Source: a virus. From it: a stretch of 44,001 nucleotides of DNA. Positions 851-40,004 of this stretch are shown here, piece after piece. The stretch's first letter is position 1. Each line of letters opens with the position of its first letter. Where the stretch lies: the IMG/VR virus record IMGVR_UViG_3300023082_000017, positions 1 to 44,001 of that record, one strand, 5' to 3'. A program made the translations under genes and the position numbers. The notes beneath the pieces were generated by a model, which worked only from the letters and a program-made list of their open reading frames with translations, searched no databases and was not told the DNA's origin.

Positions 851-2847
851 ATGCCGCGCTAGCGATTCCCCACGACGTGACCCTGGCCGATGGCGGGTTC
901 GTTGCTGCGGCCGCGTGGAAGCGCGGTTTCACGCCGCCCCCGATCCTCACGCTGAGCCAGTGGGCGGACGAGCATCGAGTGCTGCCGCAGGAGGGTGCCA
1001 AGGAATACGGCAAATGGCGCACCAGTCGTACGCCTTACCTTCGCCAGATCATGGATGACCTGTCAGTGCATTCGCCGTACACGGAGGTGAGCTTCCTGAA
1101 GTCCACGCAGGTGGGCGGGACGGAGGTGTGCATTAACCTCCTCTCCTACGTGATCGAGCACGCGCCGGGTCCGTTGATGTATGTCCTGCCCACCCTGGAC
1201 ATCGCCCGCAAGTTCAGTAGCCAGCGCCTGCAGCCCGCGTTCGACCTCATGGCCTCAGTTCGTCGCAAGCTCGGCGCCCAGCGCCGGCGAGACGGCGGCA
1301 ACAGCACCCTGACGAAGAAATTCATGGCTGGGTTCATGGTGCTGTCCGGCGCCAACAGCGCGAACTCGCTGGCGTCCATGCCCGTGCGATATCTGATTCT
1401 CGATGAGTCAGGGAAATATCCGCTCGACCTTGACGACCAGGGTACCGCGCAGGAGCAGGCCGAGCGCCGCACCTCGAGCTACACCCGCCGCAAGAAAATC
1501 GCTCGCGTGTCGTCCCCAACGATCGAGGACGCATGCCCCATCAGTGCCGACTACGAACGCGGTCACCAAGCCTGCTACCACGTGCCATGTCCGTACTGTC
1601 AGCAGCTGCAAGAGCTCGTTCCGGAACAGCTCACTGACGATGGCCAGTTTCTGTGCATCCACTGCGGCGAGCTGATCGATGAGAGTCACAAGGCCTGGAT
1701 GCTGCGCGAACGGGGGCACAGCGAGGACGGGCTGGCCGAATGGATCGCCAAGCATCCTGAGCGGCAGGCGCGGAGCTACCGTCTGTGGGCCGCCTATGCC
1801 GCGCCAGGCCTTGGCTACACCTGGGTCGAGATCGCGCAAATGCGCCGGGACGTGAAAGACCATCCCGAAAAAGAGGTCGCCTTCGTCAACACGATTCTCG
1901 GGCGTGCCTACCAGGGCGCAAGCGAACAGGCGGTAGCCAAGGAAATTGCCGAGCGCGCCGGCGGGTGGAAGCGGCGGATGCTTCCGCCTGGGTGTCTGAT
2001 TCTGACCGGCTTCGTGGACGTGCAGGCGAATCGCTTCTCCTGCGGTGTCTGGGGCTGGGGGAGTGGCGATCGCTGCTGGGCGATCGACTGGGTGGAGCTG
2101 CCTGGCGATCCGACGCGCAAGCAGGATTGGCAGCAGGTCGAGGACTACTTCGCGCAACCCATCATCAACAGCTTCGGTGTGCCTGTCACCGTGAGGCTGA
2201 TCGGTGTCGACAGCGGCAACTGGAAGAACGACGTGTACAACTTCGTGCGTCCTCGCCAAGGTAAGGGTTTCGTCGCGACGAAGGGCATGAGCAAACAGGA
2301 TGCGCCCGTTATCTCGCGCCCCGCGAAAGACGACGGAAACACGCGCGGCCAAGCCGACCGAAAGGGAATCCGTCGCTACAACCTCGGCGTGCATGCGATC
2401 AAGACCACGCTGATGCGTCGCCTGATCAAGGACGGCGAGCTCGCGGTGGAGCAACGCCGATTCAACTTCCCGGCCGACCACGACGAGGTGTTTTATGAGC
2501 AGCTCACCGCCGAGCGCCTCGACCTGACCATCAACCGATGGATCTGCCCCAAGAGTAAGCGCAACGAGGTCCTGGACATCCTTGTGGGTGCCTATGCCAT
2601 GGCGTGTTCGCCGACCGTGCGCCTGCATGTGATGCGAGATGCTGACTGGATGGCGCTCGAGGCGAGGGTCGAGCCAGGTACAGCCGACCTGTGGTCGGTG
2701 GCTGCCACTGCACCGCCGCCGGCGGCGGTGGAGGCCACTGAGGCGCCAACGCCAGTGGCCGCCGCCCCACAGCCGTCTCCGCCGCGTGCGCCGGCGACAC
2801 CAGCACGTAATCCTTTCGCATCCTCCGACTGGACGAGCCGCCGATGA
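847..2847 (+). CDS. terL: Terminase large subunit (lambda gpA family)
   Basis: ATP-driven DNA translocase and nuclease that packages DNA into the prohead. The 666-residue length is near that of lambda gpA (641). Visible parts are a Walker A-like segment KSTQVGGTE at residues 85-93, Walker B LILDES at 183-188, and a gpA-type zinc site CPYC...CIHC at 248-273. A C-terminal nuclease domain has acidic residues in GFVDVQ (D391) and LIGVDSG (D455). The last ~50 residues are a Pro/Ala-rich tail. gpA-type enzymes commonly cut at cos sites, so cos ends are plausible, but no cos site was identified. The gene overlaps its neighbours by 4 bases on each side, consistent with coupled translation. Confidence 0.96.
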   Translation: MNAALAIPHDVTLADGGFVAAAAWKRGFTPPPILTLSQWADEHRVLPQEGAKEYGKWRTSRTPYLRQIMDDLSVHSPYTEVSFLKSTQVGGTEVCINLLSYVIEHAPGPLMYVLPTLDIARKFSSQRLQPAFDLMASVRRKLGAQRRRDGGNSTLTKKFMAGFMVLSGANSANSLASMPVRYLILDESGKYPLDLDDQGTAQEQAERRTSSYTRRKKIARVSSPTIEDACPISADYERGHQACYHVPCPYCQQLQELVPEQLTDDGQFLCIHCGELIDESHKAWMLRERGHSEDGLAEWIAKHPERQARSYRLWAAYAAPGLGYTWVEIAQMRRDVKDHPEKEVAFVNTILGRAYQGASEQAVAKEIAERAGGWKRRMLPPGCLILTGFVDVQANRFSCGVWGWGSGDRCWAIDWVELPGDPTRKQDWQQVEDYFAQPIINSFGVPVTVRLIGVDSGNWKNDVYNFVRPRQGKGFVATKGMSKQDAPVISRPAKDDGNTRGQADRKGIRRYNLGVHAIKTTLMRRLIKDGELAVEQRRFNFPADHDEVFYEQLTAERLDLTINRWICPKSKRNEVLDILVGAYAMACSPTVRLHVMRDADWMALEARVEPGTADLWSVAATAPPPAAVEATEAPTPVAAAPQPSPPRAPATPARNPFASSDWTSRR

Positions 2848-3188
2848 ATAACCCGAGGTTAGCTGCATGCGTGCACGGCGCACCCGACGTCGACGCCATC
2901 GAACCCGCCAAGGCCCTGCTGGACGAACTGACGGTGGCGCTGGCGGAGGCACGGGGTATTCCTCATGAAGAGGCATTGCAATACGTGGCGCCTATCGTCA
3001 GGCACCTGCAGCAACAGTACGGCGGCGACGAGGTCTACATCCCGCGACCTGGCCGGTCCCACCCGGTGGCTGACATCATTGCGGCGCGGCGAAGGGGGGA
3101 CGATATACGCGCCATCTGCATCCGGTACAGCATCAGCCGGCGTACGTTTTACAACCTCATGCAGGCGCACGGTCACTACGTCGCCTGA
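2844..3188 (+). CDS. Mor/C-family transcription activator
   Basis: The 114-residue protein has the Mor/C layout: a helical dimerisation half (about residues 15-58), the GG-x-x-x-YIP strand motif (GGDEVYIP, 60-67), then a C-terminal helix-turn-helix (about 86-107, RGDDIRAICIRYSISRRTFY). In phage Mu, Mor activates the middle promoter and its relative C activates late promoters, binding dyad sites that overlap poor -35 regions. Here the gene overlaps terL by 4 bases and ends 2 bases before a 27-bp palindromic promoter element (3191-3217) that recurs at 21834-21860. I infer that it activates those two promoters. It could instead be a minor regulator or packaging accessory. Family assignment is fairly sure; targets are unproven. 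Confidence 0.75.
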   Translation: MNNPRLAACVHGAPDVDAIEPAKALLDELTVALAEARGIPHEEALQYVAPIVRHLQQQYGGDEVYIPRPGRSHPVADIIAARRRGDDIRAICIRYSISRRTFYNLMQAHGHYVA

Positions 3189-3190
3189 GC

Positions 3191-3240
3191 GTGCAGGGTT
3201 TCCGGGAAACATTGCACGCTGAATCCGTGATCGTGGTGGC
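3191..3240 (+). promoter_or_regulatory. Palindromic late promoter 1, leaderless start
   Basis: Bases 3191-3217 form a 27-bp palindrome: outer arms GTGCA and TGCAC, inner arms GTTTCC and GGAAAC around a central G; only the 2-base spacers are unpaired. Exactly 23 bases separate it from the ATG at 3241. A possible -10, GATCGT (3229-3234), ends 6 bases before the ATG, so transcription would begin at the start codon, and no clear ribosome binding site is present. The expected -35 position lies inside the palindrome and does not resemble TTGACA, which suits an activator-dependent promoter. The element at 21834 matches at 23 of 27 positions with identical spacing. Confidence 0.65.
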
Positions 3241-3495
3241 ATGTCCAATGCCACCATCATGCGCGACCGATATCTCGCCGCCGAGCTCGCGATCCTTGAG
3301 GGTCAGAGCATCGACTTCGGCGGGCGTCGTCTCACCATGGCCGACCTCGACGAGGTCCGAAAAGGCCGGGCGGAGTGGGAGCGCCGCTGCAACGCCGAAG
3401 CGCGTGGTGGCAACGGTATGGCGCTCGCCAACTTCTCTGGTACTCCGTCGGGCGGCGAAGGTCGCGAGCGGCACGGCTGGAGTCGCGACCGATGA
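3241..3495 (+). CDS. gpW-like head-tail joining protein
   Basis: Small (84 residues) head-completion protein of the lambda gpW type, which joins the portal vertex to the tail and helps stop DNA leaking out. The N-terminal part has the family pattern: a helix (RDRYLAAELAILEGQS), a beta hairpin with FGGRRLTMADL, then a second helix (EVRKGRAEWERRC). The Gly-rich tail after residue 55 is longer than in lambda gpW (68 residues) and may be disordered. Its position between terminase and portal is as in lambda. It appears to be the first gene of the transcript from the palindromic promoter, with a leaderless ATG. Its stop overlaps the portal start by 4 bases. Confidence 0.85.
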   Translation: MSNATIMRDRYLAAELAILEGQSIDFGGRRLTMADLDEVRKGRAEWERRCNAEARGGNGMALANFSGTPSGGEGRERHGWSRDR

Positions 3496-4976
3496 GCGAC
3501 CTGAAAGCGCCCCTCATCGATCGCGTGATCATGTCGGTGGCCCCCGTCTGGGGAGCCAAGCGTACAGCTGCACGCCTTCGCGCCCTCGCTTACGGGGCCG
3601 CATACGAAGCCGCTGAGCCCGGTCGCCTTCGGAAACGGACACGCGACAAAGGCAACGGCAATGCGGCGGTGAATCCGAGTCAGGCGGCGCTCCGCGACAT
3701 GGCTCGTCAGCTTGACCGCAATCACGATATCAGTCGCGGCATCCTCGACATCCTTGTCCGCAACATTGTCGGCGCGAACGGCATCGGCGTTGAGCCGCAG
3801 CCGCGCGACCGTAACGGCAACGTGGATAACGACCTGGCGACGCAGCTGAGCGAAGCCTATGAGCGTTGGAGCGAGCAGCCCGAGGTGACGGGTGAACTCA
3901 ACAGGGGTCGCAGCGAAGCGCTTGTATGCCGCAGCTGGCTTCGGGACGGCGACTGCTTCTGGCAGTACGTCGCTGGCAACGTCCCAGGCCTGACGCACTG
4001 GTCGCCGGTGCCGTTTTCGCTCGAGCTTCTCGAGTCGGACATGTGCCCCGTAGATTACAACGATCCCGCGAACAACGTGCTGGGCGGCGTGCAGTGCAGC
4101 GCATGGGGGCGGCCGCAGCGCTACGCCATGTACAAGCAGCATCCCGGCGAGCCTTATTCCCCCATGCCGGAACTGAAGTTCCTGGACACCGACATCGTTG
4201 GTCACATCAAGCTGATCGATCGCATAGGGCAGCGGCGCGGGGTGAGCATCTTCGCCAGCGTTCTCACCCGGCTCGACGACCTCAAGGACTACGAAGAGAG
4301 CGAGCGCATTGCTGCGCGGATCGCCGCGTCGATGGCCGCGTTCATTAAGAAGGGCGAGGGTGCCGATTTCCCTGTGGATGGCGCGGCAGGCGAAAAGCGC
4401 GAACTGTTCTTCCAGCCGGGCATTGTGTTTGACGACCTACGTCCGGGCGAGGACATCGGTACCATCGACTCCAATCGTCCGAACCCGAATGCGGCCACCT
4501 GGCGTGACGGTCAGATCAGGGCGATCTCATCCGGAACGAACGTCAGCGCGAGCTCGGCCGGCAAGAACTACAACGGCACCTACAGCGCGCAGCGGCAGGA
4601 GCTCGTCGAGCAGTGGGGCGCCTATGACGCGCTCAGCAAGGCGTTCATCGATCAGCACACCCGCGAAACGTACAAGAAATTCTGCGAAATGGCCGTCCTC
4701 AGCGGCGTCGTGCGCATGCCACGAAACATGACGATGGAAGGCCTGTCCCAAGCCGTGTACGTGCCGCCGTCCATGCCATGGATCGACCCCCTGAAAGAAG
4801 TGACGGCCTACGCGACGGCGGAAGACCGGCGCTACATCAGCGGCCCTGAAGTGCTCCGTAAGCAAGGCCGAAATCCCGCAGAGACCCTGCGCAGCCAGAG
4901 CAAGTGGCAGGAAGACCTGCGCGCTGCTGGCCTCGGTCCTGCTGCCGCGCCCACGAATTCCCCGGAGAACAAATAA
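3492..4976 (+). CDS. Portal protein (lambda gpB family)
   Basis: Forms the 12-fold ring at the head vertex through which DNA enters and leaves and on which the tail assembles. The 494-residue length fits lambda-type portals (lambda gpB is 533). Family segments seen include the early QLDRNHDISRGILDILVRNIVG region, an Arg/Trp-rich core (CRSWLRDGDCFWQYV), and the late AGKNYNGTYSAQRQELVEQW and FIDQHTRETYKKFCEMAV segments typical of this family. The ATG at 3492 is chosen because it overlaps the gpW stop (ATGA); an upstream in-frame ATG at 3375 lies deep inside gpW. The stop codon overlaps the next gene by one base (TAATG). Confidence 0.95.
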   Translation: MSDLKAPLIDRVIMSVAPVWGAKRTAARLRALAYGAAYEAAEPGRLRKRTRDKGNGNAAVNPSQAALRDMARQLDRNHDISRGILDILVRNIVGANGIGVEPQPRDRNGNVDNDLATQLSEAYERWSEQPEVTGELNRGRSEALVCRSWLRDGDCFWQYVAGNVPGLTHWSPVPFSLELLESDMCPVDYNDPANNVLGGVQCSAWGRPQRYAMYKQHPGEPYSPMPELKFLDTDIVGHIKLIDRIGQRRGVSIFASVLTRLDDLKDYEESERIAARIAASMAAFIKKGEGADFPVDGAAGEKRELFFQPGIVFDDLRPGEDIGTIDSNRPNPNAATWRDGQIRAISSGTNVSASSAGKNYNGTYSAQRQELVEQWGAYDALSKAFIDQHTRETYKKFCEMAVLSGVVRMPRNMTMEGLSQAVYVPPSMPWIDPLKEVTAYATAEDRRYISGPEVLRKQGRNPAETLRSQSKWQEDLRAAGLGPAAAPTNSPENK

Positions 4977-7252
4977 TGAAATTCTCTCGCACGCGTCTCG
5001 CGCTTGCCATGGCAGCTGCCGATGGCGGGGCCGACCCTATCCGTCCGGTCATGATGCTACGGCCGGTCGCGCTGACGACCGAGTACGAGCTGATCGTCTA
5101 TGGCGATATCGGTGAAAGCTGGTGGGGCGATTCGATCACAGCGTTGAGCGTCGTGCAGCAGCTGCAGGCGCTGGACGCGTCGGTGACGCAGATCAACGTG
5201 CGCATGAACAGCTACGGTGGCAGCGTGAGCGACGGCCTGGCGATCTACAACGCCCTCCGGAGGCATCCAGCCCGAAAGGAGGGCACGGTGGATGGCGTCG
5301 CGATGTCGAGCGGCAGCCTGATCCTGATGGCCTGCGACACGATCAAGATGCCCGCCACGGCCGTCCTGATGATCCATGCACCCTGGGGCGCGGCTTCGGG
5401 CAACGCCAACGATATGCGTTCGATGGCGGACGTCCTGGACAAGTACGCGGATGCCATGGCGAACGCGTACGCCAGGAAGTCGGGCCATCCGAAAGCAGAG
5501 ATGCAGACGCTCCTCGCCGACGGTCAGGATCACTATTACACCGGTGAGCAGGCAGTCGACGCGGGCTTCGCCGATGCGCTCATTGAAGACGTTCGCCAGA
5601 GCGAAGACGGGGACGCCGCCGCACAGGGCGCCGCCCGCGCTGCGGGCGTGGCGCGCTTCACCGATTCCGCCCCCGCGCACATTCGCCAGGCGGCGCTTGC
5701 CGCCGTGCGGCAGCAACCGCTTGCGCTCCCCGATACACCGAAACCGCGCATGCGCGTGCCCGCAGGCTTCGACCTCGGGCACCTCGAACAAGCCCTCGGG
5801 ACGCCCGAAGGTCAGCAAGCCCTCTTGGGCGCCTTAACGACGGCCGTGTCGGCCGATTCCGGAGATACCGATATGAAGCGACGCAACCTCTACGCCGCGC
5901 TGTTCCGCGCCCCGGCGGGCGCTGATGGTGGCGACCTTGGCGGTGGTGGCAATCCCGCCCCGCCGGCAGGCTCGAATACTGCGGAGACTGTTCTCGCGCA
6001 GATCCGTCAGCGCAATGCTGACATTCGTGCGGCCCTCGAGCCGCACATGGCGCGGGACGGTGTGCAGGCCATCCTCACCGATGCGCTGTGCGATCCTTCC
6101 CATACGGTCGACAGCGTCCGTGCCCGGGTGCTGGATCTGATCGGCGCGGCTGCGAAGCCTGTCGGTAATGTGCGTATCGAGAACGGCCCGGACGAAAGCG
6201 ACAAGTTCCGCGCTGCTGGAGAGAATGCCATTCTGGCGCGCGTCAATATGGCGAAGGCCGACGGCCAGAATCCGCTTCGTGGCATGACCATGCGCGAGAT
6301 CGCGCGTGCCGCCGTCGAGCGCAACGGTCGTAGCACGGCCGGCATGGACGTTCGCGAGATCGTCGCCGCGGCGTTTACCACGACCTCCGACTTTCCCGCG
6401 CTGCTCACCAATACGTCGCGAGCAGCGTTGCTCCGCGGATATGACGAGGCGGAAGAGACGTTCCCGTTGTTCACGCGTCCGGGCACGCTGACCGATTTCC
6501 GCGAGTCCAGCCGCACCGGCTTGGGCCACTTCTCAAGCCTGGGCAAGGTTGCCGAGGGGGGCGAATACAAGTACGGCAAGTTCGGTGCCCAAGGCAACTC
6601 GATCATCCTCGCCACGTACGGCTCGCTGTTCGCCATCAGTCGCCAGGCCATCATCAATGATGACCTGGGCGCTTTCACCGACGTGCCGGCGAAGATGGGT
6701 CGTGCAGCGAAACGCACGATCGGCGACCTGGTATTCGCCGTCCTCACCAACAACCCGAGAATGGCGGACGGTAAGAACCTGTTCGGCGCGGATCACGCCA
6801 ACCTGATCACCCCGGGCGGCGGTATCACGACCGATTCGGTCGATGAAATATCTACGCTGATGGGCACGCAGAAGGTCGACGGCCGGCCCGTCACGATCCC
6901 GCTGAAATACCTTCTGGTGCCGATCGCCCTGAAGAGCCAGGCAAACCTTGTCCGTTCCAACGTGACCAAGGTTGGCGGATCGGACAACTCCACGCAGGCG
7001 AATGTCATGCGGGATCAGTTCGAAGTGATCGCGGATTCGCGTCTGGATGCGGCCAGCAAGAAGGCCTGGTATGCGGCCGCCGATGCGATCCAGAACGACA
7101 CAATCGAAGTGGCGTATCTCGACGGCGTGCAGCAGCCGTTCCTCGATCAGAAGGACGGCTGGAGCGTCGACGGTACCGAGTTCAAGGTCCGCATCGACGC
7201 GGGCGTCGCGCCGACCGACTACCGGGGCCTGGCTAAGAACGCGGGCGGCTAA
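4976..7252 (+). CDS. Fused ClpP-like prohead protease and major capsid protein
   Basis: One 758-residue frame joins a maturation protease to the shell subunit, a known arrangement in some phages. Residues ~33-205 are a ClpP/S14-like domain: a substrate strand (VRMNSYGGSVSDG), the nucleophile segment GVAMSSGS (Ser111), MIHAPWG (His134) and a likely Asp near 185 in GQDHYYTGEQAVDAGFAD. Residues ~206-430 are Ala-rich and may act as scaffold. Residues ~430-758 resemble the Mu gpT-type major head subunit (PFPLFTRPGTLTDF-like region, then GKFGAQGNSIILATYGSLFAISRQAIINDD). An in-frame ATG at 5873 with its own ribosome binding site could release a separate 459-residue scaffold/capsid product. Start ATG 4976 overlaps the portal stop. 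Confidence 0.92.
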   Translation: MKFSRTRLALAMAAADGGADPIRPVMMLRPVALTTEYELIVYGDIGESWWGDSITALSVVQQLQALDASVTQINVRMNSYGGSVSDGLAIYNALRRHPARKEGTVDGVAMSSGSLILMACDTIKMPATAVLMIHAPWGAASGNANDMRSMADVLDKYADAMANAYARKSGHPKAEMQTLLADGQDHYYTGEQAVDAGFADALIEDVRQSEDGDAAAQGAARAAGVARFTDSAPAHIRQAALAAVRQQPLALPDTPKPRMRVPAGFDLGHLEQALGTPEGQQALLGALTTAVSADSGDTDMKRRNLYAALFRAPAGADGGDLGGGGNPAPPAGSNTAETVLAQIRQRNADIRAALEPHMARDGVQAILTDALCDPSHTVDSVRARVLDLIGAAAKPVGNVRIENGPDESDKFRAAGENAILARVNMAKADGQNPLRGMTMREIARAAVERNGRSTAGMDVREIVAAAFTTTSDFPALLTNTSRAALLRGYDEAEETFPLFTRPGTLTDFRESSRTGLGHFSSLGKVAEGGEYKYGKFGAQGNSIILATYGSLFAISRQAIINDDLGAFTDVPAKMGRAAKRTIGDLVFAVLTNNPRMADGKNLFGADHANLITPGGGITTDSVDEISTLMGTQKVDGRPVTIPLKYLLVPIALKSQANLVRSNVTKVGGSDNSTQANVMRDQFEVIADSRLDAASKKAWYAAADAIQNDTIEVAYLDGVQQPFLDQKDGWSVDGTEFKVRIDAGVAPTDYRGLAKNAGG
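5861..5875 (+). promoter_or_regulatory. Internal ribosome binding site and start inside the protease-capsid gene
   Basis: GGAG at 5861-5864 lies 8 bases before an in-frame ATG at 5873 (codon 300). Initiation here would give a 459-residue protein (5873-7252) starting MKRRNLYAAL that carries the capsid domain without the protease. The nested arrangement recalls lambda C/Nu3. The position falls exactly between the protease domain and the rest. It could make unfused capsid subunit in excess over protease fusion. Inferred from sequence only. Confidence 0.55.
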
Positions 7253-14136: not shown

Positions 14137-17100
14137 ATGTCGATCCAGATCAGCGATATCAAACTCCGCGCCTCTGAGCGCCTTGCAGACACAGACGATG
14201 GCGGCGGCCGCATGACCGGTCAGGTCATCGAGAGCGGCGTGCTGAACAACCTCTTTCCGGATATCAGTCGCCTGGATCGAACGTATGGGCGTCTGTCCTT
14301 GCGGAAGGCTTACATGGCGGTGGCGAGCGACGATACAGACACCTACCTGGGGTCGCATGTCATCGTCACCGACCCGCCCAATGATCCCCGGCTAGCGGTC
14401 ACCATCTTCACGACGGACAGCGTGACGGATGTCAGGTCGAACGCTCAGGACCGTATCGAGTCCTACGTCACCGTGGGGCCGTTATCGGCGTATTTCCTGT
14501 TTGGCACGCAGCCCAAGGGCGCAAAGGCGATCACACTCCTCGGGCGCGTGGAAACGCCACTGCCCGAGGTGGGCGATGTGATAGTTCTGTCTGTGGAATC
14601 TGGCGGCGCGGTCGCTGCGGCGCAGTACGTCCGCATCAGCGATGTAGCGTTCGAGAGCCGGACCTTCACCGACAGCAGCGGCGACTACGTGCGCAAGGTC
14701 GTCACGCTGACACTCACCAACGCGCTCCGGCAAACGTACATCGGCGCCGAAGCCGACCGGCTGACCAACATCGTGCCTCCGACCCGTGTACGGCTTACTA
14801 CCGTCGCTGATGCGAGCACCTACTACGGCGTCAGCCGCATGGCTCTTGCGGCGCCAAAAGACGCTCTCGAGCTGACCGTTGTGAGTATCACGGCCCAGCT
14901 GGTGCCTGCGACAACCCGAGAAACGGCAATTGCAGGCGCATCGCCTGGCTTGTCGCTCAGCTACATCGCGGCGGGGACTTCTCAGCCGCTGGAAAGCGGC
15001 TCGGCACCGCGTTACCAGTGGCGCAGCGTCCTGCCGGGGAGTGTCGCGGCCTCGGTACCGGCGGGATCAGCTACCGACTTGGGCGGCGATCTTCTCGTAA
15101 ACTCAATCGCTGTCGGCACGGTGGACTATGAAGCCGGTCGTTTTGACGGCACGAACCTGAACGGCGGCACCTACACGCCGGCGGCGGCGGTCAGCGGTGC
15201 CTCTCATACCGTCGCCATTGACGTGACCCTGCCAAATCAGGGCACTGTGTACGTGACGACGCTACCGACGGTACCGGCAGTCGGCACCCTTACGGTTGAT
15301 TTCCGCTATCTGGGCAAGTGGTACACGTTGCGCGACACGCTGGGCAACGGGTCGATGGTCGGGTCTTCCAGTGCAGAAGGCGGCGGGACGATCGATTATC
15401 AATCAGGCAACGTCACCCTTACGCTGGGCGCGGTACCGGACGTGGGCAGCAAGATCGTTTATGCCTGGGGCGACCCGACGAGCTACCAGCAGCATGCAGG
15501 CGATCTCGCCGTCGACAATCCCACGGTGACGTTTCAATTGAACAGCTTCCCCATCAAGGCCGGCTCCCTCGCGCTGACCTGGCTAAGCGGTGGGCTGGCG
15601 AAGACCGCGGCCGCCGATGCTTCGGGGAAGATCACTGGCGACGCCACGGGCACGGTCATCTATCTCACCGGGCTGGTCGTTCTGAAGCCCAACGGGAACG
15701 CTTTCCCTGACGCGAACTCCAAGATCGACGCGTCCTTCGTACAGACGGACGGGCAGCAGGGAAATGTCACGGGCGCCTATGCGGCCGGGCATCTCACGTT
15801 CAACGTCCCGGCGAATGCGCTGCCAATGAAGCCTGGCATGTTCTCCGGCACCATCGCGGGCTTTTCTGGCGATCTGAGCGAGAAGTTGTATTTCAAGGAT
15901 GATGGTCTCGGCAACATTGTCACCGCCTACGAACTGGCGCCTAAGACGCCTGGCCTGAAGTTCGAGGATATCGACGATCCCGCGCTGATCCCCACAGTCA
16001 TTGCCGTGAACGCGGGCACCGTGAACTACACGACGGGTCAGGTTGATATCGAGCCGGGAACGATCGCGAGGCGTGAATTCACCATCAAGTCGACGCTGGT
16101 TTCAAAGAAAGTCGTGCTGGGAGACTGGCAGGTGGTTGCCGGTGCAGCAACTTTCGTGCCGTCGCCCATCGTCCAGTTTAGCTCGCAGCGAAACACCGCG
16201 ACCGAAGCCGCGGCAGAGGAGTCGACGACCTTTCCTGGTGTGTCGTTCATTCTCACGCGCAACGTAGTGGACCCGATTCAGCCCGGATCTGTCTGGTTCA
16301 CGTGGGGCGGAAAGACGTACATTGATCGGCAAGGCAAGGTGTTCCGTGACCTGGATACGAAGACCGGTGCTGCGGTCGAAGCGGGCTCTATCGACTACAC
16401 CACGGGTGCGGTTGCGCTGACCAACTACGGGTCAAGCACAGGCGGTAGTGTTTCGCTAAAGTCCCTGCTGACCCGTTTCGGGGATCTTCCGGTGTCCTAC
16501 GTCGCGTTCCGTACGCCAGGTGCGCCGCTTCGCCCTGCGACGTTCAGCGTACAAGCGGTACGCGCTGATGGGCTCGGGGTCGTTACCGCCACCTCGACCA
16601 CAAATGGCGCTATCACAGGGACTTTCATTGGTGGCACGGTCGAGAATGACATGGGCCTGGCAGAGCTGTCGTTCGGCTCTTATGTGCCGGCCGCCGGAAA
16701 CGAGAATGAGCCGTGGTATTCGGCAGGCAACGTTGTCGGTGCAAACGTCTGGAAGCCCATTCTTGTCGATCCGACGACGATCAAATTCAATTGCGTTGTC
16801 CAGACGACGTTGCCCTTGAGCGCCGACGTTCTCGGTATCGATCCCGTCAGGTTGCCGCTCACTGGCAGGGTGCCCATTTTCCGCGACGGTGATGTCATCG
16901 TGGTGCACGAGAGGTTGCCTGCCACATGGCCGAGCGCCGTCTCCGCCGGCCAGGTCGTCACGGTCGCCGGGGCGCCGTTCGGGCAGGTCGATTTTCTCGA
17001 CGCCAACGGCAACGTCGTGGGCGGTCAGTACCTGTCGGTGGACATGGACACCGGTGTTGTGACCATGGCGAGTTCCCTGGCCGGATTGGTCCAGCCGCTG

Positions 17101-17676
17101 ACGCTGACGGTCACCGTCGAGGACATGGTCCTCGTTTCCTCCGTGGACCTGAGCGGTCGGCTCACGTTGGCGGCGCCGCTCTCCCGTAATTATTCGGACG
17201 ACGCACTGGTGTCTTCTGCTCTACTGTTCGGCGACCTGCAAGCGCAAAACCCCGTCTTCTTCAGTCAGTCCACCTGGCAAAACACATGGCTTGACGCTCT
17301 TTCTGGCTCCCCGACGACGGCGCAGTACAACCGGGCGCTGTATCCCCTAAGTATCGTGAACGCGGAAGCGATCAGTGAACGGTGGGCCTTCATCTTTACG
17401 AGTGCCACCGGTGGGAACGTGGTCGGCGAGACCTTAGGTCAGATTGGTACTTTCAGCATCGGCACCGATGCGGCGCCCATCAACCCGATCACAAGCAGGC
17501 CTTATTTTACGCTGCGAAAAGACGGGTGGGGTGCCGGGTGGGGCGTGGGCAACGTCCTTCGGCTGAACACGATCGGACCGAATGCGCCCTTGTGGATCGC
17601 TCGCACCGTGCTCCCTGGGGCCGACGCCACCTCTGGTGACTCATTCCGTATCCAGATGCGAGGCGACGCAGACTGA
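14137..17676 (+). CDS. Large beta-rich tail-tip protein with repeated modules
   Basis: A 1179-residue structural protein of the tail tip; no enzymatic motif was seen. After an N-terminal anchor (MSIQISDIKLRASERL) the body is a series of beta domains marked by a recurring strand-turn-strand motif, roughly G-(S/T)-(I/V)-(D/N)-Y-x-(T/S)-G-x-V-x-L. Instances are GTVDYEAG, GTIDYQSG, GTVIYLTG, GTVNYTTG, GSIDYTTG and a degenerate SVDMDTG. This suggests growth by duplication of an Ig-like module. It lies between the small tail-tip gene and the LamG-like proteins, so it is likely a central tip or tail-fibre scaffold. The stop overlaps the next start by one base. Confidence 0.65.
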   Translation: MSIQISDIKLRASERLADTDDGGGRMTGQVIESGVLNNLFPDISRLDRTYGRLSLRKAYMAVASDDTDTYLGSHVIVTDPPNDPRLAVTIFTTDSVTDVRSNAQDRIESYVTVGPLSAYFLFGTQPKGAKAITLLGRVETPLPEVGDVIVLSVESGGAVAAAQYVRISDVAFESRTFTDSSGDYVRKVVTLTLTNALRQTYIGAEADRLTNIVPPTRVRLTTVADASTYYGVSRMALAAPKDALELTVVSITAQLVPATTRETAIAGASPGLSLSYIAAGTSQPLESGSAPRYQWRSVLPGSVAASVPAGSATDLGGDLLVNSIAVGTVDYEAGRFDGTNLNGGTYTPAAAVSGASHTVAIDVTLPNQGTVYVTTLPTVPAVGTLTVDFRYLGKWYTLRDTLGNGSMVGSSSAEGGGTIDYQSGNVTLTLGAVPDVGSKIVYAWGDPTSYQQHAGDLAVDNPTVTFQLNSFPIKAGSLALTWLSGGLAKTAAADASGKITGDATGTVIYLTGLVVLKPNGNAFPDANSKIDASFVQTDGQQGNVTGAYAAGHLTFNVPANALPMKPGMFSGTIAGFSGDLSEKLYFKDDGLGNIVTAYELAPKTPGLKFEDIDDPALIPTVIAVNAGTVNYTTGQVDIEPGTIARREFTIKSTLVSKKVVLGDWQVVAGAATFVPSPIVQFSSQRNTATEAAAEESTTFPGVSFILTRNVVDPIQPGSVWFTWGGKTYIDRQGKVFRDLDTKTGAAVEAGSIDYTTGAVALTNYGSSTGGSVSLKSLLTRFGDLPVSYVAFRTPGAPLRPATFSVQAVRADGLGVVTATSTTNGAITGTFIGGTVENDMGLAELSFGSYVPAAGNENEPWYSAGNVVGANVWKPILVDPTTIKFNCVVQTTLPLSADVLGIDPVRLPLTGRVPIFRDGDVIVVHERLPATWPSAVSAGQVVTVAGAPFGQVDFLDANGNVVGGQYLSVDMDTGVVTMASSLAGLVQPLTLTVTVEDMVLVSSVDLSGRLTLAAPLSRNYSDDALVSSALLFGDLQAQNPVFFSQSTWQNTWLDALSGSPTTAQYNRALYPLSIVNAEAISERWAFIFTSATGGNVVGETLGQIGTFSIGTDAAPINPITSRPYFTLRKDGWGAGWGVGNVLRLNTIGPNAPLWIARTVLPGADATSGDSFRIQMRGDAD

Positions 17677-21833: not shown

Positions 21834-21883
21834 GTGCAAGCTTTCCGGGAGAAATTGCACTCGGTAGCGGTGACGATCATCGA
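21834..21883 (+). promoter_or_regulatory. Palindromic late promoter 2, leaderless start
   Basis: Bases 21834-21860 are a second copy of the 27-bp element, identical to 3191-3217 at 23 of 27 positions, including the outer GTGCA and ATTGCAC ends and the shared core TTTCCGGGA. The distance to the start codon (ATG 21884) is again 23 bases. The possible -10, GACGAT (21872-21877), ends 6 bases before the ATG. No -35 consensus or ribosome binding site is seen. It would drive the lysis cassette, as a C-dependent promoter does in Mu. Confidence 0.65.
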
Positions 21884-22525
21884 ATGGTCACCGCCTCCAC
21901 TACGCCCGATCGTTTCCCGCTGTGCCTGCCGCTGACGCTCGCCTACGAGGGTGGCTGGGCAAACCATCCACTCGACCCTGGCAAGGCCACCATGCGTGGT
22001 GTGACGCAGGCGGTCTACGATGACTATCGGTCCATGCACGGGGTGGGGGTTCAGTCCGTAAGGCACATCAGCGACAGCGAACTCACTTCCATTTACCGTT
22101 GGCGATATTGGGATGCGATCCGCGCGGGATCGCTGCCTATCGGTGTCGATTACGCCATGTTCGACTTTGCTGTGAACAGCGGCGTACGGCGGTCGGTACT
22201 CGAGCTACAGGCAGTTCTGGACGTTCGTGCTGATGGCTCGATCGGGCCACTGACACTCGCCGCAGTCGCTTCATTCTGCCGCGGCCATGGCAACGCGTCG
22301 CTAAGCGATGCCGTCTGCGCGAGGCGCTTGCGTTTCATTCGCGGGCTTTCCACTTACGAGACATTCGGCCGAGGCTGGACGGCACGTATCGTCGGCTCGC
22401 GCTCCGGCAGCCAGGTGGACGATACCGGTGTGGCTGATCGCGCGCTGCGAATGATTGTCGGCGACGTTGCCACTGTGCCGGCAGCCCCGGCGAATACACC
22501 GAAGACGTTTGCTGCAGCGGCCTGA
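21884..22525 (+). CDS. Endolysin, glycoside hydrolase family 108
   Basis: Cell-wall lysozyme that should release progeny by cutting peptidoglycan glycan strands. The 213-residue protein begins with the GH108 signature: LTLAYEGGWANHPLDPGKATMRGVTQ, read in two parts, with the catalytic Glu22 in the EGG motif. The DYAMFDFAVNSGV segment and a C-terminal peptidoglycan-binding-type segment (LQAVLDVRADGSIGPLTLAAV) follow. No signal peptide or membrane segment is seen, so it needs a holin. First gene of the lysis cassette, leaderless start 23 bases after the palindromic element. Confidence 0.9.
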   Translation: MVTASTTPDRFPLCLPLTLAYEGGWANHPLDPGKATMRGVTQAVYDDYRSMHGVGVQSVRHISDSELTSIYRWRYWDAIRAGSLPIGVDYAMFDFAVNSGVRRSVLELQAVLDVRADGSIGPLTLAAVASFCRGHGNASLSDAVCARRLRFIRGLSTYETFGRGWTARIVGSRSGSQVDDTGVADRALRMIVGDVATVPAAPANTPKTFAAAA

Positions 22526-26259: not shown

Positions 26260-26273
26260 TGAAGGGTGGCAAA

Positions 26274-26298
26274 AAAAAGCGGCATCAAGCCGCTTTTT
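26274..26298. terminator. Strong bidirectional terminator
   Basis: AAAAAGCGGC (26274-26283) pairs perfectly with GCCGCTTTTT (26289-26298) around a 5-base loop. T runs on either strand make it a two-way intrinsic terminator. It closes the left operon; the stop codon of the last gene lies in its loop. It also insulates the attP/integrase segment. Confidence 0.9.
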
Positions 26299-26560
26299 CG
26301 TGGGAGGGGGTCGGTCCGGAAGGTGGGCCCGAATGCACCCGAAGGTGCCCCTGGCCTGCAAGGAAATTTTTGTAGCACGCCATCATGACGTTCCACGCCT
26401 CCTTCGCGACTGCGGGGCCCGCTTCGATGACGTTGCCATCCTCATCCACGATCGCCAAGGATGCGCGCTTGCCATCGTGCGTAGCCGCGTTCAGCCCTTC
26501 GAAGATGACCGCGCTGAGGTCGGCGTGCTCGAGGCCTCCGGTTTTCGGTATGCCGATCAT
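26285..26560 (-). CDS. Small protein, last gene of the left operon
   Basis: A 91-residue protein of unknown function. It begins MIGIPKTGG and has a beta-hairpin-like region (ASLAIVDEDGNVIEAGPAV) and a helix (KEAWNVMMACYKNFL). Its ATG at 26560 overlaps the upstream stop (ATGA), which decides the start against an ATG at 26593. The stop codon lies within the loop of the terminator at 26274-26298, so this is the end of the operon. Confidence 0.6.
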   Translation of the reverse strand: MIGIPKTGGLEHADLSAVIFEGLNAATHDGKRASLAIVDEDGNVIEAGPAVAKEAWNVMMACYKNFLAGQGHLRVHSGPPSGPTPSHEKAA

Positions 26561-28967: not shown

Positions 28968-29897
28968 TCAGGACTCCTTGCCCGCTGGCGAAATCGTTAG
29001 GGGATGCCCGTAGGGCACACGGAAGCCCGAAGCATTGCGGTGGCCACCACCGCCGTATTGCGTAGCAACCTCGGCAACGTCCACGCCCTCGTCGCTGCTG
29101 CGCAAGCTGAACGTGCGGCCCTTTTCGGTGTCCCAGTAACAGGCGGCGAAGGGCTCTCCCTGGCACATCAAGTGGCCCGCATCGCTGGTGAGCGTGTAGG
29201 GCAGATTCGCCACCGGCACGTCGTAACCGCCGATTACGAGCCGCCGCTTTGTCACGCTCACAAGCTCCGCGACATCCTTGTGGTGCTTGCGCTCGATCGC
29301 GGCACCGTCATGGCGGAGAGCCTCCACCGCGGCGTCGTTCATCAGCAGGTCCCACACCGCGAAGTCATACGGGTAGCTGAAGAGCGCCGCCTGTACCTCG
29401 CGCGTGCCGGGAAGCTCAAACCGCCAAAGGTCGCGATCCTCGATGTGCTGCAGGAGTCGGGGCGGTTCGATGCCAGGGTTGAAGTGATCCCATGCCAGCC
29501 TGGCGCCGCTGCGGTCCATGTCGAAGCATGTGGCGACGTTAGGGCCGCCCTGCATGGTGGAATCGACCAGTGCGGCCTTCCAGTGCGCATTGAACGTGCC
29601 GTCGTCGGGAGCGTCGGTGCGAAACTGCGCGAATCGAGACAGCTCGTCCCGCGCAGACTTGTGATGGTCCAGCACGAGAACGCGGTGCGCTTTGCGTCCC
29701 ATGTCGCTGAGCACGTCATACGAGTAGCTGAAATCGACGATGATCACATCGCGCCCGGTTACATCCGGCGGCGGGTTGCCATGCGTGGCAGCGAAGCCTT
29801 CGAAGTTATCCACGCCGACGGCATTGCGCACGGCCCAGGCAGCGCCAAAGCCGTCGGCGCAGTTCGCGTGGTAAACGCATAGAATTGGCTTGTCCAT
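28968..29897 (-). CDS. DHH/DHHA1 family phosphoesterase
   Basis: Metal-dependent hydrolase of short phosphodiester substrates; relatives cut nanoRNA, pAp or cyclic di-AMP in the cytoplasm. The 309 residues contain the DHH motifs: YHANCADGFGAA (Asp15), IIVDFSY (Asp55), LDHHKSA (77-79) and an EDRDLW segment (153-158). They end with the DHHA1 substrate-binding motif GGGGHRNASGF (282-292). All expected metal ligands appear present, so it should be active. The ATG at 29897 has GGAG about 5 bases upstream; an alternative ATG at 29987 overlaps the methylase stop (ATGA) and cannot be excluded. The substrate cannot be told from sequence. Confidence 0.88.
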   Translation of the reverse strand: MDKPILCVYHANCADGFGAAWAVRNAVGVDNFEGFAATHGNPPPDVTGRDVIIVDFSYSYDVLSDMGRKAHRVLVLDHHKSARDELSRFAQFRTDAPDDGTFNAHWKAALVDSTMQGGPNVATCFDMDRSGARLAWDHFNPGIEPPRLLQHIEDRDLWRFELPGTREVQAALFSYPYDFAVWDLLMNDAAVEALRHDGAAIERKHHKDVAELVSVTKRRLVIGGYDVPVANLPYTLTSDAGHLMCQGEPFAACYWDTEKGRTFSLRSSDEGVDVAEVATQYGGGGHRNASGFRVPYGHPLTISPAGKES

Positions 29898-29983
29898 CAT
29901 CACTCCCGAATCCGGTTTCTGTGTGTGCGAGTGCTTTTCAGCCTCACTGCGCAAAGGGTGTTTTATGTGGTGAGGAGGGGTGA

Positions 29984-30820
29984 TCATGCGATCAACCTCT
30001 TCTGCTGCTGTCCGTCGAATGCGGCCTCATTGAGCCACAAGCTTTCGACTCGCTCCCGCGCACCATCGGCATGCGCGCTTCGGTCGATACGGTGCCATCC
30101 CTGATAGAGACTCTCGTAAAGGCTCGACGGATAGCCGGACAACACGACCATGCCCCGAAGTCCACGCAATCCGCTGGCCAGCGCTTCGTGCATTTCGTCG
30201 GTCAGTTCGTGCTTGTAGGACTTGCGGGCGAGGTCGTGGTTGACCTTCACCGAGCGTGTGGAATGCACATATGGGGGGTCGACGTAATGGAGTGTTTCGC
30301 TGCTGTCCTGGTGAACCATGACCGCCATGGCATCACGCTGCTCGATCACCACGCCCCGTAGGCGCTCGACCAGTGCTTCTGTTGCGCCCGCGTAATTCGC
30401 CCAGTCGTGCGCCGGCGTGGTACCGGATCGGTTGCTGTTCGCGCGGAAGCCAGACAGCTCGCCGCAAGCGGCGGCTGATCCGAAGCCTTGGAAGCTACGA
30501 AGGATGGTGCGCCGGGCCTGCTCGATGGGATCATCTGACGGCAGATATGCGCCGGCGAATTCCTCCCGACTGAACGGCGTCAGGCGAATAGCCTCGCGTA
30601 TCTCCGGGCCGTGATCGCGCATCACGCGGAACACGTTGACGATCTCGCCGTCCAGGTCGTTATAGATTTCGGCGTAACTGCGTGGCTTGCGGAGAAGCAC
30701 AGAGGCGCCGCCGCCGAACGGCTCGACATAGGTACGGTGCGGCGGAAGATGTCCGATGATCCACGGGGCAAGCTTCCACTTGCCACCGTGGTAGCGAACC
30801 ATTGGGCGGGTCGGTGTCAT
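29984..30820 (-). CDS. DNA adenine methylase (D12/Dam class)
   Basis: N6-adenine DNA methyltransferase of 278 residues. The SAM-binding motif VEPFGGGAS (35-38 FGGG) and the catalytic DPPY (181-184) are intact. The early YHGGKWKLAPWI segment is typical of the family and the region between the motifs carries the target recognition part. No restriction enzyme gene is nearby, so this is a solitary methylase that may protect phage DNA from host restriction or act in regulation. The recognised sequence is unknown. Overlaps the cytosine methylase stop by 4 bases. Confidence 0.93.
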   Translation of the reverse strand: MTPTRPMVRYHGGKWKLAPWIIGHLPPHRTYVEPFGGGASVLLRKPRSYAEIYNDLDGEIVNVFRVMRDHGPEIREAIRLTPFSREEFAGAYLPSDDPIEQARRTILRSFQGFGSAAACGELSGFRANSNRSGTTPAHDWANYAGATEALVERLRGVVIEQRDAMAVMVHQDSSETLHYVDPPYVHSTRSVKVNHDLARKSYKHELTDEMHEALASGLRGLRGMVVLSGYPSSLYESLYQGWHRIDRSAHADGARERVESLWLNEAAFDGQQQKRLIA

Positions 30821-32847
30821 GCCGCCACCGCCAGGTCTTCCGGCAAGCGGTCGAGATTCTCTTCGGCGATCGCCCTCAGGGGCGGCGGGCTGACCGAGTT
30901 TCCCACCATGTGCACGCTCTTGCTGATGCTCAGCGGGCGGCCGTCTGCCGTGCGGTCGATGATGTAGCCGGCCGGGAAACCCTGCGCGCGGAACAGTTCC
31001 TCACGGCGGAGCATGCGCAGGCCGATATCGACGATGACGTATGGGCTGCCCTTCAGCCAGACCGTGACGAGTGCCAGGCGATCGCGAGTCGTAACAGTGT
31101 CCAACGGCTCCGCGATATCGACGCCGAGAGCCGTGCCGTAATATTTCACCAGGAACGCGGCAACACGCAGCGCGCCTTCCTCGTGCTCCGGACTGAGCGT
31201 GCATTCGACGACGGCATGGTGTTCGCCGCCGGCGCTGACGGTGGCAAGCGGATCCTGAGCGTCAGCGGCCGAACTGGTGCCACGAAGCTTCGCGAGGTTT
31301 ACCGCCGCGAGGCGCTGCTGGCTCCCGGTGCCGGTGATGGCTGACATGGGCGCATCGGCTGCGTTGCCGTCGCCATCATAGAAGCCGCCGTTAGCCTGCT
31401 CGAGGAAGGCGGACACCACGCCGTAGCGGGTCGCTCCGGCCAGCGCTGTCTGCATGGGCTCATCGACACCGGACCCCTTGGCATTCTGCCCGAAAGCGGT
31501 GAGGTGGGCCGTTGCCACGGCGTGCTTGACGCCCCCGGCCGGGGCCACGCCGAGGGGGGCCTCGATGTCGAGAGCGCGCGGCGCCTGCCCCTCGCGTTCA
31601 CCGTAGCCGGTCTGCACCAGCGTGGGGGCGCATACCGCGAAGTGCCCGCCCTTCACCTCGGCGCACATCGTGTTGAGCGGTGTCGTCACGGGCTTATTCG
31701 TGTCGACAGATGACTGAGCATGCTGGGCAACGAAGGGTGCGAGCGTCGGAACGGCCAGGCAGGCGTCGGCCTTCGACGTCGTCGTTGGGGCCGGCTCATT
31801 CACGGACCGCTCGGCCGTCTGGCCCATGCGTCCGCCCACGCCGACGATGAACGGCTCGGCGGCATCGATCACGTATCGCTTCACGCCCCGCGCAATGCGG
31901 CGCAGCGTGGCGTCGGCGAGGGGGCGCTTCACGCGGACCTTCCGCGCGTCTTCCTTCGACAGGAAGATCGACGGGCAGGGCACGGTGAAGTCGATGCAGT
32001 CGGCGGCCGTGACGAAAGGCTTAAGCCCGGCACCGGGACCATGGGACGGCTTCGGCCACACGATGGGCATGCCATCACGGCGGGCGACGAGGAACAGGCG
32101 CTTGCGGCTCGTGCCGGCGCCGTAGTCGCAGGCGGACAGCTTCCGCCACTCCACGGTGTAGCCCAGCGCGCGGAACGCGGCCACGAAGTGATCCCACGTC
32201 CGACCCGCATACCTCTTATCGGGAACGAGCGCCTGGTTCCAGACGGAAACCTGCTCTCCCTTATTTGCGACTCGCTCGACCATGACGACTTTGCCGCGAA
32301 AGCGAACGACTTCACCGGTCTGCGGGTCGAGCTTGGGGACCTTCTCAAGCGTGACGACGCGGCCCGTCGCTTTGTCGCGCTTCGCGATCAGCGGCCCCCA
32401 TTTCAGAATCTGTTCGACGTTCTCCAGGCTGATGATTCGCGGCGCTAGGCCGGCGCTCGCCAGCGTGCCTGCGACCTTCAGCACGACCCACGATAGGGAG
32501 CGCGTCGCCTTGCTGCGCGGCTGGCCGCCCTTGGCTTGGCTGAAATGCGTGCAGTCCGGGGAGGCGTGGAACCAGCCGACAGACCGGCCAGCTACCTCGC
32601 GGAGAATGTCCACCGTCCACACGTCGGCAGGCAGGTGGCGGGTGAACGGGTGATTCGCCGCGTGCATGCCGAGCGCATCAGGGTCGTGGTTTACAGCCAC
32701 GTCCGGATCGCGGCCAAGGGCCTGTTTCAGGGCCTCACTGGCGCCACCGCCACCTGCGAAGAAGTCCACTACGATCTCGCCCGGACGGAGCAGGGAAATT
32801 TTGGCCGCCGGGAAGTTGAAGCCAGATTGCGAGCCGCCGTCAGCCAT
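30817..32847 (-). CDS. DNA cytosine-5 methyltransferase with repeated insert
   Basis: A 676-residue C5 methylase. Motif I is VDFFAGGGGAS (28-35), the nucleophile motif IV is SPDCTHFS (Cys99), motif VI is LENV (141-144), a motif VIII-like GAGTSRKRLFLVAR lies near 243-256, and the C-terminal motifs X include MVGNSVSPP (648-656). Between ~349 and 595 lies a long region of about seven related units of ~25-45 residues, each opening with a (D/E/K)-x-P-(x)2-T pattern (EPAPTTT, KPVTTPL, APLGVA, EPMQTAL, APMSAIT, DPLATVS, EPLDTVT). Such an insert could hold several target-recognition elements. Likely protects phage DNA against host restriction. Confidence 0.93.
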   Translation of the reverse strand: MADGGSQSGFNFPAAKISLLRPGEIVVDFFAGGGGASEALKQALGRDPDVAVNHDPDALGMHAANHPFTRHLPADVWTVDILREVAGRSVGWFHASPDCTHFSQAKGGQPRSKATRSLSWVVLKVAGTLASAGLAPRIISLENVEQILKWGPLIAKRDKATGRVVTLEKVPKLDPQTGEVVRFRGKVVMVERVANKGEQVSVWNQALVPDKRYAGRTWDHFVAAFRALGYTVEWRKLSACDYGAGTSRKRLFLVARRDGMPIVWPKPSHGPGAGLKPFVTAADCIDFTVPCPSIFLSKEDARKVRVKRPLADATLRRIARGVKRYVIDAAEPFIVGVGGRMGQTAERSVNEPAPTTTSKADACLAVPTLAPFVAQHAQSSVDTNKPVTTPLNTMCAEVKGGHFAVCAPTLVQTGYGEREGQAPRALDIEAPLGVAPAGGVKHAVATAHLTAFGQNAKGSGVDEPMQTALAGATRYGVVSAFLEQANGGFYDGDGNAADAPMSAITGTGSQQRLAAVNLAKLRGTSSAADAQDPLATVSAGGEHHAVVECTLSPEHEEGALRVAAFLVKYYGTALGVDIAEPLDTVTTRDRLALVTVWLKGSPYVIVDIGLRMLRREELFRAQGFPAGYIIDRTADGRPLSISKSVHMVGNSVSPPPLRAIAEENLDRLPEDLAVAA

Positions 32848-33037
32848 TGAAGGTAGCCTCGGCACGTGCGACATCGACGACCCAGTTCGTGCCGTCGAAT
32901 GTGGCCTCCAGCGGGATAGGCTGAGTGTGGCCGAAGCACGCCGGTGCTTGGTAATAAGCCGGAAAACCCTGCGCCTCGCGAAGTTCGGAAGCGCTGAGCA
33001 CAGGTTGTTCAAAGTCAGAGCGGAGGTCGTTAACCAT
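32840..33037 (-). CDS. Small early-left protein upstream of the methylases
   Basis: A 65-residue protein beginning MVNDLRSDFEQPVLSASELR and ending in a short beta segment (FDGTNWVVDVARAEATF). Function unknown. ELREAQGFPAYY resembles the C-terminal EELFRAQGFPAGYII segment of the neighbouring C5 methylase (its residues ~616-630), so it may be a displaced fragment of such an enzyme. The overlap of 8 bases on each side supports translation. Confidence 0.55.
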   Translation of the reverse strand: MVNDLRSDFEQPVLSASELREAQGFPAYYQAPACFGHTQPIPLEATFDGTNWVVDVARAEATFNG

Positions 33038-38907: not shown

Positions 38908-39552
38908 TTAGATTGCGTCTATCACTCGGCCACCGATGGCAAGTTCTTTGTAGTCGTCGCCCGTCAGATCGAGCCTGCGCGCGGTTTCCGAATCGCCAGT
39001 GAGGCGGAATTCGTTATTGCCGATCTTGAATATTCTGCGGACGTCCGGGCGGCCGCCCCAGAATCTAACAACGTAGACCTCGCCGTCGAGAATGTCCTCA
39101 AGCGCTGCCTGGCTACTGTCGACGAGGATCAGGGCGCCCTTCGCTATCTTCGGTGCGAGGGCATCCGACGGGTTCACAAGCCATTTGACCACTCCGAGAT
39201 CGGTACCGTGCGGGACGCGCTGCCTCACCAAGAATTCCGGCAGAAAGACCTCCTGCATGTCCGGCTCAGTGGAGAAGGCGGTCAGGCGCCCGAGCGCTAC
39301 GTGCCCTGGAAGGTCGGGCTGCACGCGCGACTGAATGCCAGGCGTCTCCCACATGAGGATTTCGTTCGGCGTTGAGCCCAGTGCTACCGCCATATCGCGA
39401 ATCTCTGCCGCCGGCAGCCAGTTCACACCCGCTTCGTAATTGCCGAGACGGCTAGTGCTTTGATAGCCCATCTTCACGGCAAGCTTGTCCTGCGTGAGGC
39501 CAGCGGCTTTTCGGAGGCCGGCTATGTGCGTGCCGAGTGTCTTCTTATCCAT
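38908..39552 (-). CDS. cI: CI-like repressor with inactive S24 domain
   Basis: A 214-residue lysogeny repressor. Residues ~13-42 are a helix-turn-helix (LRKAAGLTQDKLAVKMGYQ...). Residues ~105-214 follow the S24/LexA fold (KIAKGALILVD, ILDGEVYVVRFWGG, VRRIF, GDSETARRLDL). At the position of the catalytic Ser in (G/D)-S-M-x-P, the sequence is D-A-L-A-P (Ala131); the catalytic Lys in VKRL is Arg (Arg172 in VRRI). No Ala-Gly or Cys-Gly cleavage pair is seen before the domain. Self-cleavage is therefore unlikely. ATG at 39552 gives the standard MDKKTLGTHIAGLR start; the longer frame to 40026 overlaps the divergent cro-like gene. Confidence 0.88.
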   Translation of the reverse strand: MDKKTLGTHIAGLRKAAGLTQDKLAVKMGYQSTSRLGNYEAGVNWLPAAEIRDMAVALGSTPNEILMWETPGIQSRVQPDLPGHVALGRLTAFSTEPDMQEVFLPEFLVRQRVPHGTDLGVVKWLVNPSDALAPKIAKGALILVDSSQAALEDILDGEVYVVRFWGGRPDVRRIFKIGNNEFRLTGDSETARRLDLTGDDYKELAIGGRVIDAI

Positions 39553-39564
39553 GGGGACGAATAG

Positions 39565-39579
39565 TTCACGTTCTGTGAT
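39565..39579. promoter_or_regulatory. Repressor operator, imperfect copy
   Basis: TTCACG-TTC-TGTGAT matches the ATCACG-N3-CGTGAT pattern at the inner half-site bases. It lies 13 bases upstream of the repressor start on its own promoter side, as expected for autoregulation. Weaker than the two perfect copies. Confidence 0.45.
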
Positions 39580-39622
39580 AACCGCGCCACCAGCGCCCCC
39601 AACGTCATTGACACGAAATCTG

Positions 39623-39657
39623 TTGACTGGAACATCACGTATCGTGATACTCCGCCC
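39623..39657 (+). promoter_or_regulatory. Rightward early promoter with operator and leaderless start
   Basis: TTGACT (39623-39628), a 17-base spacer and GATACT (39646-39651) form a good sigma70-type promoter; 6 bases later comes the ATG at 39658, so the mRNA should be leaderless. The perfect operator ATCACG-TAT-CGTGAT (39634-39648) covers the spacer and overlaps the -10, so repressor binding must block polymerase. Confidence 0.85.
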
Positions 39658-39876: not shown

Positions 39877-40004
39877 CGCAGATTTTCCAGACGTGCGGCT
39901 GGACGTGTGACTCGCACAGCGCCGCTCCGTGATGATCCGCAGGTTTTGTTTTTGTTGTCCCTGATGTCCATAGCCGCAGTGTTGCAGCCCACGAGATTCC
40001 CCGC
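39877..40004 (+). other. Gap between cro-like and CII-like genes
   Basis: A 128-base gap. It includes a T-rich stretch (tttgtttttgttg, about 39945-39957) but no clear hairpin, gene or promoter was identified. It is where nut-like or CII-response sites would be expected; none was recognised. Confidence 0.4.

Follow-up and report, generated by a model that had tools for sequence, protein, structure and literature searches.

The two matched palindromes that stand upstream of late genes in this temperate phage are best read as the operators of a small late regulon under the phage's own Mor/C-family activator, with activator-dependent promoters and late mRNAs that are leaderless or nearly so. We put the probability of this reading at roughly 0.83. 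The element, its spacing, the accompanying hexamer, its linkage to and co-variation with Mor, and its conservation before unrelated late genes are all read from sequence comparison, while binding, activation, the start site and the dependence on leaderless translation are inferred. The term window is used here for the whole stretch of viral DNA that was analysed, 44,001 nucleotides in length, and the features under discussion are collected in Table 1.

Table 1 Operators, promoter hexamers and genes of the putative late regulon in the window.
Feature	Position	Strand	Remarks
Mor/C-family transcription activator gene, 114 aa	2844-3188	+	Last gene before late genes
gpW-promoter operator, 27-bp palindrome GTGCAGGGTTTCCGGGAAACATTGCAC	3191-3217	+	A-type: GTGCA...TGCAC, TCCGG core
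-10 hexamer GATCGT (A2, T6) of gpW promoter	3229-3234	+	11 bp past operator
gpW head-tail adaptor gene, first of late operon	3241-3495	+	PHROG 118 head-tail adaptor, 3.6e-21
Endolysin-promoter operator, 27-bp palindrome GTGCAAGCTTTCCGGGAGAAATTGCAC	21834-21860	+	
-10 hexamer GACGAT (A2, T6) of endolysin promoter	21872-21877	+	11 bp past operator
Endolysin (glycosyl hydrolase 108 + peptidoglycan-binding domain)	21884-22525	+	Pfam PF05838 2.3e-23, PHROG 315 endolysin

Two matched elements in the window

Both sites share one layout, consisting of the 27-bp element, 11 bp, a hexamer, 6 bp and the ATG, and both elements point in the same direction as the downstream gene. The original prediction had placed a 27-bp palindrome exactly 23 nt before the gpW ATG and an element identical at 23 of 27 positions exactly 23 nt before the endolysin ATG, each followed by a -10-like hexamer that ends 6 nt before the ATG; these coordinates and counts are correct. 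The arms match at 11 of 13 pairs in the first element, which begins 3 bp after the mor stop codon, and at 10 of 13 in the second. No third copy was found in the 44-kb window, and the repressor/CII region of the window is without the element.

It had also been argued that such an arrangement is hard to explain by chance. Across 300 dinucleotide shuffles, the best match between any two palindromic 27-mers was 21/27, compared with 23 in the real sequence. A matrix built from the sites of other phages only ranks 21834 first (31.1 bits) and 3191 second (24.3 bits) in the window, while the best score in 100 shuffles was 7.6 bits. The argument holds on these two counts but not for the 23/27 direct repeat by itself, which is unremarkable in 44 kb (about one pair expected by chance, by our own rough estimate). 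The weight rests on finding repeat, palindrome, spacing, hexamer and ATG together.

An intrinsic terminator was considered as a candidate and rejected, as no T-run follows either element. Elsewhere in the window, the sequence AAAAAAGCGGCATCAAGCCGCTTTTTC at 26273-26299, upstream of a serine integrase-like gene, looks like a two-way intrinsic terminator.

The adjacent, probable activator gene

The gene at 2844-3188 sits between terL (847-2847) and gpW. Its product matches Pfam Mor (PF08765) with 23.0 bits (E 8.5e-5), just below the curated cut-off of 24.9, and also matches the late transcriptional activators of PHROG 836/532. Among 13 aligned homologues, the window protein included, 10 match Pfam Mor at E<=1e-3, and the proteins of contigs L158 (55.4 bits) and G021 (31.6 bits) lie above the cut-off. 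The GGDExYIP (GG-DE-YIP) motif is present in the window protein, its helices occur in the right order and the helix-turn-helix appears to be in place. Its top fold matches among 350,542 PDB chains were Mu Mor 1rr7 (E 0.05) and 9l0y (E 0.28), both weak, and a PDB sequence search with the Mor profile reached Mu Mor only at E 0.28. Judged by its sequence, the gene encodes a divergent activator of the Mor/C family of phage Mu, although the window protein, taken by itself, narrowly misses the strict cut-off.

This Mor very probably binds both elements, although binding is inferred and no footprint data are available. The original prediction of one activator-controlled late regulon is supported, and the activator, which had been left unnamed, can be identified as the product of the adjacent upstream Mor/C-family gene. 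Searches of the phage collection with the mor region, as DNA or as protein, returned no matches, and single-protein scans were also empty.

Conservation of the putative promoter in related phages

Relatives were reached through the long tail protein encoded at 14137-17676 (1179 aa), which led to related IMG/VR contigs. Three full-length contigs each carry a Mor homologue and 2-4 elements, all 22-24 nt before an ATG. A profile made from four Mor proteins found 34 loci in IMG/VR, 33 of them of the window-type subfamily. The same collection was scanned independently at the DNA level for the element pattern GTGCMNNNNNTCCGGKANNNNNKGCAC alone, with no demand on the downstream sequence. The protein and DNA scans returned largely the same contigs, and the contigs with an element and no Mor were mostly short fragments.

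With one variant pattern added, the set contains 57 distinct elements. An ATG lies 22, 23 or 24 nt past the element at 1, 21 and 17 sites, respectively (39/57), and at these group-1 sites the hexamer columns behind the 11-bp spacer show A2 in 39/39 and T6 in 38/39. In the remaining 18 elements, which were taken as chance matches, the hexamer columns are random and no ATG falls at 22-25 nt. Of the 33 Mor contigs, all but two (31 of 33) have a complete promoter downstream of mor, and the sequence of these two runs out within 320 bp. The search of related phages for the element at a fixed distance from an ATG, proposed along with the original prediction, is therefore positive, with conservation in many phages and before late genes. 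Care must be taken with these numbers, as the sites share descent and cannot be counted as separate events. Co-variation and the reappearance of the element before unrelated genes carry the argument, rather than raw counts.

Two further observations concern the wider set. Element-like matches (GTGCATTTTGTCCGGTAAGRCCTGCAC) in L109, L110, L126 and L127 have AACACT at the right offset and no ATG at 22-25 nt, and are possibly due to chance. A homologous long tail protein is present in L007/L008 (G004, G005), L010 (G007) and L012 (G009), in which no Mor of the window subfamily could be detected; late control may differ in these phages.

Co-variation of operator and activator

Positions 5 and 23 of the element form an A-T pair at 6 sites and a C-G pair at the other 33; mixed combinations, though permitted by the scan, do not occur. 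A-type sites (GTGCA...TGCAC) are paired with a Mor that has YIPRPGR[ST]xP...[YF][NW]L in its DNA-binding part, and C-type sites (GTGCC...GGCAC) with one that has YIPQ...YR in this part. In L031, the N-terminal part of Mor is near the C-type proteins (69% vs 56% mean identity), as is gpW, and the DNA-binding part and the operator are both A-type. Changes are also shared between the elements of one genome. For example, both elements of L057 carry the identical central change TCTGATAAA, and both operator copies of L183, which belong to the second subfamily described below, read CGAAACG/CGTTTCG, with the outermost bases swapped in a compensating way. Since the elements change together within a genome and track Mor residues, they point to a shared DNA-binding protein, and to Mor rather than CI or CII.

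Predicted target genes and gene order

The order primase, helicase, terS, terL, mor, promoter, gpW, portal and capsid is kept in the full records, as is the wider order in which a promoter precedes the tail completion and tape measure genes and another precedes the lysis genes. C-type phages have an extra promoter before the tail-completion gene (PHROG 27), beside the tape measure gene, and most of them have a promoter near the lysis genes. The lysis-side targets belong to differing families and include GH108 endolysins as well as an unrelated 190-aa protein.

Other features were noted elsewhere in the window. A ClpP-like head maturation protease and a major capsid domain are fused in one 782-aa reading frame (4904-7252). 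On the minus strand, 28968-33012 holds two DNA methyltransferase genes and a DHH phosphoesterase-like gene (PHROG 4771), possibly modification or defence cargo. The immunity region (38908-40586) is mosaic, with a CII-like protein 94% identical to that of G006 and an adjacent repressor only 36% identical.

A second Mor subfamily

G021 has a C-type element before its endolysin gene and at first appeared to be without Mor. A different Mor, the one scoring 31.6 bits above, is found at the same place after terL. In relatives of G021, an unrelated 26-bp operator, GGAAACGCTTTGCCTTANNCRTTTCC, lies at the end of mor and is followed after 11 bp by xAxxxT, with an ATG a few bases on. This group-2 operator recurs upstream of endolysins and of a second gene some 2 kb further along, and A2 and T6 occur at exactly 11 bp in 16/19 distinct sites. 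Two sites, L182:3281 and L183:2834, have 10 and 9 nt, respectively, from hexamer to ATG, which could reflect either a short leader or a shifted start. A sample of 369 gammaproteobacterial genomes yielded one distant Mor. It also precedes gpW, with GTTCC...GGGAC, 11 bp, CATTCT, 6 nt and an ATG, but as a single site this is weaker evidence.

On balance, we favour the generalization, with some reserve, that Mor-family phages share a promoter class in which the operator sequence is free and the geometry is fixed (a 26-27-bp dyad, 11 bp, xAxxxT, about 6 nt and AUG). The whole late regulon would then be leaderless, and short leaderless adaptor ORFs would link the start, by stop-start overlap, to genes unable to begin there.

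Inferred leaderless initiation and alternative readings

The distance from hexamer to ATG is 5-7 nt at 39/39 group-1 sites. If the hexamer is placed at -12 to -7, an interval of 6 nt puts the A of the ATG at +1 and one of 7 nt puts it at +2. Predicted Shine-Dalgarno pairing at the 39 ATGs is weak (mean -2.6 kcal/mol), and most, though not all, of the other window genes checked reach about -4 to -8 kcal/mol. The window endolysin site is an exception, with an upstream GGTGA at -6.0 kcal/mol if transcribed. The earlier statement that a ribosome binding site is absent must be qualified by this motif, although it remains the case that a convincing Shine-Dalgarno sequence is lacking at both window ATGs.

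At 8 group-1 sites, the promoter ATG opens an ORF of 10-19 codons and not the main gene. Such sites, found before an endolysin or tail gene, include L006:19229, L032:17658, L090, L097, L099, L144 and L147. The stop of the short ORF either overlaps the main-gene start or directly abuts it in 7/7 checkable cases (ATGA, GTGA, TGATG and similar), and these ORFs are possible adaptors for translation by termination-reinitiation. Where the gene begins some 30-60 nt further on, the retention of an ATG at the promoter would be difficult to account for if this ATG were not used. The gpW and endolysin mRNAs are predicted to start at the ATG or within 1 nt of it. The leaderless arrangement first proposed for the two window genes is supported by promoter geometry and by the overlapping short ORFs, with the start site itself inferred from that geometry.

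The most serious competing reading, though an unlikely one, is that the promoters are controlled by Mor but are not leaderless. Transcription would start elsewhere or leave a short leader, and the distance to the ATG would reflect compact packing. Starts 6-9 nt past the -10 would permit leaders of 0-2 nt, mapped starts are lacking, the ATG lies 9-10 nt past the hexamer at a few group-2 sites, and the endolysin GGTGA could act as a weak Shine-Dalgarno sequence if transcription began further upstream. This does not easily account for the constant position of the ATG across group 1, for the weak Shine-Dalgarno pairing at promoter ATGs, or for the ATG that is retained ahead of a more distant main gene and joined to it through a short overlapping ORF. 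The palindromes could also be operators at which a repressor, either the CI-like protein (38908-40026) or another regulator, silences late genes in the lysogen, and here the evidence leaves little room. Palindromes over the -35 region are typical of operators, and the phage encodes both a CI-like repressor and a CII-like protein. However, no -35 consensus is left for unaided polymerase, the element is missing from the window's own repressor/CII region, and the sites follow the Mor gene and its DNA-binding residues. The element is also shared by G006, whose repressor has just 36% identity.

It is more doubtful still that the palindrome acts as RNA, for instance as a terminator, processing site or stabiliser in read-through transcripts. 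A stem of 5-6 bp can form, but conservation extends beyond pairing to the core TCCGGKA and to the 11-bp spacing between element and hexamer; at positions 7-10, only 9-13 of the 39 sites are paired, and the second subfamily replaces the whole sequence yet retains the promoter geometry. As for a chance repeat in a GC-rich genome, the direct repeat alone would not be rare by the estimate given above, but conservation across phages, the ranking by the matrix and the geometry of the second subfamily rule this out for practical purposes.

Proposed circuit and comparison with known systems

In the circuit of Mor-activated leaderless promoters that we prefer, the activator would probably be made from the replication-terS-terL-mor transcript. 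It would bind the palindrome at about -50 to -24, in place of a -35 element, and would bring host RNA polymerase to a weak hexamer lying exactly 11 bp past the palindrome (-10 consensus GATGCT, in which A is at -11 and T is at -7). The transcript would begin at the A of the ATG or no more than a nucleotide away, and leaderless mRNA would serve for translation of the endolysin and of gpW together with the head-tail operon. It is possible that the oriented core TCCGGTAAA, which spans about -40 to -32, provides sigma contacts as well. The arms, two turns apart, might be spanned by a single Mor dimer or occupied by two, and the mode of contact cannot be copied from Mu, given the differences in operator length and centre.

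Mor of phage Mu binds a 16-bp dyad (two 5-bp repeats with a 6-bp spacer) centred at -43.5 and replacing the -35 (PMC4287176, PMC4390567). The present system resembles Mu Mor at Pm in having a probable Mor-domain activator with a predicted C-terminal helix-turn-helix, a putative dyad operator in place of the -35, a recognisable -10 and a requirement, predicted here, for the activator. It does not match the Pm architecture, as the element is 26-27 bp long, its centre lies at about -37 if +1 is the ATG, its arms are two helical turns apart, 11 bp separate operator and -10, and the ATG is at about +1. By analogy with Mu, the assigned function is well founded, and the promoter would be a variant of that type rather than a copy of it. 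Mu C acts at four late promoters (Plys, PI, PP and Pmom) through a related dyad (PMC4461284, PMC4287176). Here too, a single Mor/C-family activator is proposed to act on several late promoters, in each case at a dyad that adjoins or covers the -35, and the activator gene precedes the late genes. Unlike in Mu C, the operator is different, the gene order is that of a siphophage with a gpA-type terminase, and the start is predicted at the ATG.

Lambda Q is an antiterminator that acts at one late promoter, where a pause and a terminator are involved. As in lambda, the putative late regulator gene closes the early/replication operon and directly precedes the late genes; unlike Q, it is a Mor-type gene whose DNA-binding product would act at two to four dispersed operators. 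Leaderless phage mRNAs of the lambda cI class have the start codon at the 5' end and no Shine-Dalgarno sequence, two properties that the present mRNAs are predicted to share. The difference is that leaderless initiation is here predicted at every promoter of a regulon of late structural and lysis genes, is linked to the promoter geometry of the activator and is accompanied by adaptor short ORFs. Phage transcripts are often leaderless (PMC5312081). No earlier description of such a system was found in the literature on Mor and leaderless or late promoters, but coverage was partial and novelty is unproven.

Implications

These results outline a late-regulation circuit for a group of temperate phages, with the activator, operators, -10 and predicted start site named at base resolution. 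The activator previously had no match among 50,697 phage records. With at least three operator types, this family offers a natural experiment on Mor recognition through co-variation. If the proposed circuit is true, essential head and lysis genes depend on leaderless initiation, and late phage development would be sensitive to conditions that favour or block leaderless translation.
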